From: an uncultured Oscillospiraceae bacterium
GTDB lineage: Bacteria > Bacillota > Clostridia > Oscillospirales > Oscillospiraceae
Length of the DNA: 32,542 nucleotides
Assembly (NCBI GenBank): GCA_904398675.1
Contig: CAJFPI010000037.1
Coordinates: 1-32,542, forward strand
Reading direction: 5' to 3'
The stretch's first letter is position 1, and every line of letters begins with the position of its first letter. The notes under the pieces were generated by a model that was given only the letters and a program-made list of their open reading frames with translations, was not told the origin of the DNA and did no database searches. Shown here in pieces: positions 6,407 to 29,879 of this stretch. Made by a program: the position numbers and the translations under genes.

Positions 6407-6474
6407 CCCCTGGGCGGCCTGCAAAATCCCCCCTAAAAACCTTGGTGTAAAACGCTTGCGCCATTGGGGGGGGA

Positions 6475-6497
6475 GAGCTCGAGGGGGCAAAGCCCGC
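6475..6497 (+). repeat. Copy A of dispersed intergenic 23-mer GAGCTCGAGGGGGCAAAGCCCGC
   Basis: Identical 23-mer at 29702-29724. Confidence 0.85.
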
Positions 6498-6543
6498 AAA
6501 AGCCTCGCAGAGTTTACCCGCAGACGCGAAATATGTGTAATCC

Positions 6544-6576
6544 GTTTTCCCCCAGGACATGCGCCTGGGGGAAAAC
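6544..6576. other. Perfect 13-bp hairpin inside the bceS-bceA intergenic element
   Basis: GTTTTCCCCCAGG-ACATGCG-CCTGGGGGAAAAC. Confidence 0.75.
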
Positions 6577-6640
6577 ACTTCTCGGCCCGCAAGTGTGGGG
6601 GGCGGCCGCCTCCTGCGCGCAGGGGAGCCGCATCCTTCTC

Positions 6641-6665
6641 AAAAAAGCGGCCCCGCCGCTTTTTT
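6641..6665. terminator. Bidirectional intrinsic-terminator-like hairpin
   Basis: AAAAAAGCGG-CCCCG-CCGCTTTTTT, perfect stem with A/T tracts on both arms. Confidence 0.7.
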
Positions 6666-6696
6666 GACAGTCTTTTCCGCCGTTTTTTCGCCGTAT

Positions 6697-6712
6697 CTTA
6701 CAGTATTGTAAG
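6697..6712. promoter_or_regulatory. Candidate BceR-type operator upstream of the ABC transporter
   Basis: Perfect palindrome CTTACA-GTAT-TGTAAG; another TGTAAG 20 bp downstream (6727-6732); TATACT -10-like element at 6765-6770 with a weak -35. Confidence 0.65.
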
Positions 6713-6801
6713 GTTGGGCGGCCCATTGTAAGGTGAATCGATGGAACCGCCCGGGCCGCTCTGGTATACTGATGGCAACGAACCGATAAGGAGGCATTCC
6801 C

Positions 6802-10913: not shown

Positions 10914-10953
10914 AGCGTCCCGCGCCGGAGCAGCTGCTCCGGCGCGGGACGCT
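10914..10953. terminator. Perfect 40-bp palindrome, bidirectional terminator between convergent mobA and molybdoenzyme gene
   Basis: AGCGTCCCGCGCCGGAGCAGCTGCTCCGGCGCGGGACGCT. Confidence 0.75.
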
Positions 10954-29441: not shown

Positions 29442-29655
29442 CCCCTCCGCCCGGAGGGCAAGTGAAATGCCCCCAAAGGCCTGTCCGGCCGATTTACAGC
29501 CGTCAGAGCACGAAAGACAGCGGTAGTTAAAAAACTCCCTTCAGGCGCACCACGAGCACAGGCAAAAGCCGGGGCACAGGAAGTTTCGCGTATGTGGGCC
29601 GTCCCGACCCATGCGCTTGGATCTCATGGCCGCGCCGCTGAAAGCGGCACATGGC

Positions 29656-29687
29656 CAATTTTGCTATGTTTTTATATAGCAAAATTG
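29656..29687. other. AT-rich perfect 12-bp hairpin within copy B element region
   Basis: CAATTTTGCTAT-GTTTTTAT-ATAGCAAAATTG. Confidence 0.8.
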
Positions 29688-29701
29688 TGTTGCGCGAGGG
29701 G

Positions 29702-29724
29702 GAGCTCGAGGGGGCAAAGCCCGC
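29702..29724 (+). repeat. Copy B of dispersed intergenic 23-mer GAGCTCGAGGGGGCAAAGCCCGC
   Basis: Identical to 6475-6497. Confidence 0.85.
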
Positions 29725-29830
29725 CTCGAATAGGATCAAATGCCCCGCAAAGCCTTGCTGCGCAAGGCGTGCGGCAAGCGCAGCGAGGACTTTCCTGCGG
29801 CGCAGCAGCGGGAAAGTAACGGCATTTTTC

Positions 29831-29870
29831 GGGCAGTCAAAAAAGTCCTTCGGGACTTTTTTGACTGCCC
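29831..29870. terminator. Perfect 18-bp stem with UUCG tetraloop, bidirectional terminator-like
   Basis: GGGCAGTCAAAAAAGTCC-TTCG-GGACTTTTTTGACTGCCC. Confidence 0.75.
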
Positions 29871-29879
29871 GTACTTTTT

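Follow-up and report, generated by a model that had tools for sequence, protein, structure and literature searches.

Short non-autonomous repeats that form mosaics in intergenic DNA, such as RUP and BOX of pneumococcus and the Correia elements of Neisseria, are thought to be moved in trans by the transposase of an IS; the IS families and targets involved are other than those described below, and the duplication is short and of fixed length. Group IIC introns insert beside rho-independent terminator hairpins. In staphylococci, IS1272 (IS1272/TnSha1, IS1182 family) is reported to target hairpins, many of which are terminators, with no consensus in primary sequence, and to delete or replace the hairpin without target duplication (PMC4923244, PMC5678879). 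Duplication of the hairpin was drawn as an alternative outcome of the IS1272 model (PMC5678879, Fig. 13, route 3b-6b).

The stretch of 32,542 nt analysed here (the window) corresponds to contig C37 in a draft genome of 2.3 Mb (270 contigs, 76% complete) from an uncultured Oscillospiraceae bacterium, and two of its intergenic intervals, copy A and copy B, represent short mobile DNA elements in decayed, composite form. These most probably (probability about 0.8) belong to a family of MITEs mobilised in trans by IS1182-family transposases, the target being a terminator hairpin that is usually left whole on each side. Duplication of a whole terminator hairpin sets the family apart from RUP/BOX and Correia, and it differs from group IIC introns in having inverted ends and a duplicated target, with no intron domains or reverse transcriptase.

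The initial annotation had described a perfect 23-mer common to both intervals in the same orientation, and direct reading located GAGCTCGAGGGGGCAAAGCCCGC on the + strand at 6475-6497 and 29702-29724, as claimed. A repeat search lengthened the match to 27 nt with one mismatch (6471-6497 and 29698-29724). The identity was also rightly held to exceed chance, the number of pairs expected in 32.5 kb being approximately 1e-5 per orientation by a simple estimate (n^2/2/4^23). The perfect 13-bp hairpin of copy A, GTTTTCCCCCAGG-ACATGCG-CCTGGGGGAAAAC, was found exactly at 6544-6576, and the A-tract/T-tract hairpin TCAAAAAAGCGGC..GCCGCTTTTTTGA was confirmed with 13 pairs and a slightly wider measured span (Table 1), its counterpart in copy B having 19 bp. 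TTGCGC precedes the core in both copies. The layout claimed for both, a core followed by a terminal hairpin, is likewise beyond coincidence and holds in that general form; 3' of the 23-mer, however, copy A continues as the element termed type II below and copy B as type I. BLAST of copy A against its own genome, a check proposed with that annotation, resolved it into two distinct repeats that abut at 6497/6498. In copy A, a type I head is thus joined to a type II tail that extends to approximately 6673; the tail matched the type II covariance model (R2) with 150.8 bits (E 2.1e-33) and contig C111 of the same genome by BLAST (82% over query 99-274). Copy B, from approximately 29518 to approximately 29871, belongs to type I and has a third, nested repeat in its 5' arm. 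The terminal inverted repeats are eroded in both copies, and in copy A the 5' terminal repeat upstream of the type I head is no longer recognisable.

Table 1 Features of copies A and B in the window.
Feature	Position	Strand	Basis
Copy A head, 5' part of type I to the core hairpin	6444-6497	+	weak R1 match 6473-6579, E 1.9e-4
Copy A tail, type II, AAAAGCCTCGCAGAG to 3' terminal repeat GACAGTCT	6498-6673	+	R2 match 6498-6669
Type II helix 2, perfect 13-bp hairpin, conserved loop ACATGCG	6544-6576	+	sequence, alignments
Type II helices 3-5, long hairpin from CGGCCCGC, conserved internal loops	6585-6631	+	alignments
Copy A 3' terminal hairpin, terminator-like, 13 bp and T-tract	6639-6667	+	fold
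Copy B type I 5' end, mutated terminal repeat CAGCGGTAGTTAAAAAACTCCCTTCAGGCGC	29518-29548	+	sequence comparison
Copy B type III repeat nested in type I 5' arm (approximate edges)	29545-29684	+	comparison
Copy B type I core hairpin with the 23-mer (29702-29724)	29698-29724	+	sequence, repeat search
Copy B type I conserved region	29700-29826	+	R1 match 149.2 bits, E 2.0e-32
Copy B 3' terminal hairpin, 19 bp, terminator-like	29830-29871	+	far arm is the 3' terminal inverted repeat

Both element types measure approximately 200 nt (about 180-225 nt), are free of genes, including any transposase gene, and have in common a 3' terminator-like hairpin and imperfect terminal inverted repeats, CAGnnTGTCRAA...TTYGACAGnCT, of about 11-12 bp (CAGCGTGTCRAA...TTYGACAGCCTG). 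The end motif CAGNNTGTCRAA gave 55 matches versus 11 in a reversed control. Type I (~217 nt), which carries the 23-mer, opens with the 5' end CAGCGTGTCRAAGAACTCCCTTC, followed by an A-rich spacer, the core hairpin TCGAGG-GGGC-AAA-GCCC-G-CCTCGA, two more stem-loops and the 3' hairpin CAGGCTGTCRAAAAAGTC..GACTTTTTYGACAGCCTG. Type II (~200 nt), which carries the 13-bp hairpin of copy A, consists of the 5' end CAGCTTGTCAAAAAAGCCTCGCAGAGTT, hairpin 1, hairpin 2 (loop ACATGnG), ACACTTCTC, the long hairpin 3 and a terminal hairpin finishing in TTTTTTGACAGTCT. The fusion in copy A is not unique, a second chimera of type I head and type II tail being present in locus L050 (1-250) with its junction inside the core hairpin; in L075 (7300-7514) a shortened type I unit occurs as two tandem copies with an identical core. 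The nested repeat of copy B, designated type III, measures ~150 nt, runs from AAACTTCATGCGC to the hairpin TTTTGCTATGC..GCATAGCAAA with several perfect stems (L252-L268) and has neither the ends common to types I and II nor a terminator duplication; approximately six copies were counted in the window's own genome and approximately 20 in a relative (G152), and the same nesting in a type I 5' arm recurs on contig C93 of the own genome (13772-14056).

Dozens of copies exist, so the outcome by which the proposal of a dispersed element would have failed, two isolated copies with no conserved structure or boundaries, did not arise. In the window's own genome the 15-mer GAGGGGGCAAAGCCC has 16 exact copies, and 64 matches versus 7 in the reversed control when up to two mismatches were allowed; the covariance models gave 35 type I (R1) and 26 type II (R2) matches. 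An exact 28-mer searched against GTDB species genomes hit 31 contigs, mostly of chicken-gut Oscillospiraceae MAGs, including Candidatus Pelethomonas intestinigallinarum and Candidatus Oscillibacter excrementigallinarum. Type II was present in 26 of 60 sampled relatives, including all 11 genomes of the own genus and many other genera of the family; type I was narrower (12/60), with high numbers of matches confined to the own genome (35) and G158 (32). Two further families of the order have type II: G165 strongly, with at least 45 matches and somewhat different ends, and G177 marginally, with one match. In G165 (L202-L210) a second hairpin block, CTTCACTTGAAATTGCGC..GCGCAATTTCAAGTGAA, often lies directly downstream, and a different element carrying the same type II interior may be present there. 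Among plasmid records, type II was found on two Oscillospiraceae replicons, at 35 sites on one of Vescimonas fastidiosa and also on one of Pusillibacter faecalis, and type I on none; phage records gave three matches, weak and partial.

Intact copies sit in rho-independent terminators, with terminator hairpins directly outside the ends. The same hairpin was found on both sides in 18 of 31 full-length type I copies and 22 of 57 of type II, versus 0/930 and 3/3192, respectively, when flanks were paired from different copies. The duplicated unit, of 24-38 nt, follows the hairpin rather than a fixed length, as exemplified by L086, GAGACGGCCCCAGGCGCCAAAGCGCCCGGGGCCGTCTC|AGCGTG...ACAGCCT|GAGACGGCCCCAGGCGCCAAAGCGCCCGGGGCCGTCTC. 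Duplication was unseen in more than one third of type I and more than half of type II copies, and none was seen at copies A and B. At L063, L156, L196 and the IS of L274, the two flanking hairpins are reverse complements of one another and not direct copies, which is beyond simple fill-in. Gene orientation, assigned by a codon-usage score that was correct for 26/26 training genes, showed convergent neighbours for type I in 28 of 45 cases and divergent ones in 2; for type II, the downstream gene opposes the element in 53 of 63 cases, and in 28 the upstream gene also points away.

Comparison with close relatives disclosed sites lacking the elements. Copy B, which is bounded by the convergent genes for RsmI and GerA, lies in a spacing of 452 nt between flanks that are 93% and 91% identical to those of G157, where they are 70 nt apart and enclose one plain terminator that is absent from the window. 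At copy A, whose neighbours encode a response regulator, a HATPase kinase, an ABC ATPase and an FtsX permease, the gap between kinase and ATPase measures 395 nt versus 136-138 nt in G154, G155 and G156. Judged by these comparisons, copies A and B are insertions and not ancient sequence.

IS1182-family transposase genes were found in 40 of 151 genomes of the same bacterial family. A search for ends with exact 12-mers recovered only GGGGCTGTTG-like ends without hairpin duplication, and looser end matching over more loci revealed IS1182 elements with MITE-type ends. These autonomous elements measure 1520 bp (L274, and L275, which forms an entire contig) and 1494 bp (L273), and their ends are AGACTGTCGAARAAC and AGTTTGTCAAAAAAM; the type I 5' end TGTCRAAGAACTCCC is almost identical to the IS ends TGTCGAAGAACCCC and TGTCAAAGAACTCGCC. 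Both L274 and L273 lie inside a terminator hairpin found on both sides, and L103 and L311 have the same end type with a hairpin at one side. The transposases of L274, L273 and L103 carry PF13751 and PF05598 and exceed the NCBIfam IS1182 cut-off (NF033551, 270 bits) by more than 100 bits, with scores of 385.9 and 385.1 bits for the 1520- and 1494-bp elements, within a range of 385-389. The elements with MITE-type ends (L273, L274, L275 and L103) come from other genera of the family and are decayed in the own genus. The own genome yielded no IS1182 transposase, and no intact one was found in that genome or genus, which are represented by fragmented MAGs, nor did the own genome and four relatives contain end pairs spaced by kilobases. 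Multi-copy IS are often missing from fragmented MAGs. The own genus does have decayed remnants of IS1182 transposases beside the end AGYCTGTCGAAAAAG, which abuts a terminator hairpin (G156:C15 and G151:C23); an autonomous partner therefore seems to have existed there and later been lost, or to be missing from the drafts. The interiors of the MITEs match no IS interior, hence the MITEs are not simple internal deletions.

In the mechanism that we propose, an IS1182-family transposase would recognise the inverted ends CAGnnTGTCRAARA..., and its target would be a rho-independent terminator hairpin rather than a sequence, probably in the form of an extruded cruciform. Strands would be transferred at the two opposing feet of the hairpin and the gaps then repaired, which would place the whole terminator hairpin on both sides. 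Insertion would cost the host little, because the element supplies a terminator-like hairpin of its own at the 3' end. Interior modules would be swapped among copies, giving rise to arrangements such as those of copy A and copy B. The family of the transposase and the preference for hairpins, many of them terminators, are as in IS1272; the hairpin is retained whole on both sides here and deleted or replaced in IS1272. The elements are best classed as a new MITE family that belongs to an IS1182-type transposon and whose target mode is unlike that described for IS1272. Other IS1182 elements of Oscillospiraceae, with ends GGGGCTGTTGnCAAAG, encode a transposase of the same family (PF13751) and have a related end sequence (GGGGCTGTTGACAAAG versus AGnCTGTCRAAAAA here); at the few inspected, no duplicated hairpins were found. 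The open-access literature gave no matching report on terminator-targeting MITEs or Faecalibacterium repeats nor, judged by titles and abstracts, on IS1182 with MITEs, which is weak evidence of absence. The family appears to be a natural, repeated case of transposition that copies a hairpin target whole, an outcome drawn for IS1272 and not observed there. The findings also suggest that small elements with their own terminator-like hairpin have remodelled many terminators in a common group of gut bacteria, a point that matters when operon ends or non-coding RNAs are predicted from such genomes.

Covariation bears on another explanation, namely that the family is primarily a functional structured RNA, regulatory or catalytic, which was multiplied and whose mobility is secondary. 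The structured RNA considered in the initial annotation does have a basis in the type II half of copy A. With 76 type II copies aligned to the model, 27 of 32 pairs were changed on both sides and 94.5% of the cells were paired, in an alignment that is itself fitted to the structure, and 0/500 shuffles equalled the observed value; in a MAFFT alignment of 15 copies, free of the model, changes on both sides occurred in 25 of 34 pairs, a value that no shuffle equalled. G-U cells outnumbered A-C cells (233 versus 21; 58 versus 5 in the unambiguous helix 2 alone), which suggests selection on one strand, with a partial bias since an RNA-based alignment favours G-U. The unpaired stretches GCCTCGCAGAGTT and the loop ACATGnG are kept across genera and into another family. 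An RNA origin, however, leaves the common transposon ends and the duplicated target hairpins unexplained; covariation of type I is weak (9/37 pairs); and, given the opposing or outward orientation of genes around type II, the neighbours often cannot supply transcription of its + strand. At the gathering score, Rfam 15 had no family for the window, and L032, L036, L090 and L140 gave only chance-level scores at gathering and relaxed settings; Rfam thus has no counterpart for either type, strongly though type II covaries. We regard this explanation as unlikely. It is possible, if doubtful, that a conserved structured RNA lies at the heart of the mobile type II element, its single + strand adopting a defined fold with conserved loops that would aid IS1182-type mobilisation or serve the host, and that hairpin-duplicating transposition has carried type II through terminators while it persisted in many genera and at least one further family.

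The mobile repeat of the initial annotation, proposed as REP- or MITE-like, is borne out on the MITE side by its many copies, inverted ends, duplicated target hairpins, empty sites and IS1182-family partner. Spread as REP/BIME-type repeats by a Y1 (RAYT) transposase would account for short, palindromic, intergenic and mosaic units, and the nested type III, which lacks such ends, resembles the REP kind more. Types I and II do not fit a strict REP, as judged on their inverted ends and target duplication, neither of which is expected of Y1 transposition, and their ends are common to a DDE transposon, namely the IS1182 elements; a REP/BIME origin was already disfavoured and is very improbable. It is just as hard to credit that 6440-6670 is a bceAB leader, attenuator or dedicated operon terminator and not a repeat. 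The interval does have a BceS-like kinase gene and a BceA-like ATPase gene as its neighbours, and a terminator-like hairpin closes it, but the insert is missing from the same gap in G154, G155 and G156, and dozens of unrelated sites carry this sequence too, which already disfavours the reading. With copy A taken as an inserted mobile element, its co-option by bceAB after insertion is possible. The putative separation of bceRS from bceAB transcription, suggested in the initial annotation, is plausible because of the terminator-like hairpin at 6639-6667, which would have to act as such, and because the closest relatives are without the insert.

Between copy A and bceA (6698-6732) are two TTGTAAG-type half sites, CTTACAGTATTGTAAGG and ATTGTAAGG, which are kept in G154, G155 and G156 and are likely to form a predicted binding site of the BceR-like regulator. 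Elsewhere in the window, an intergenic segment at 10914-10953 is a perfect 40-nt palindrome without a loop.
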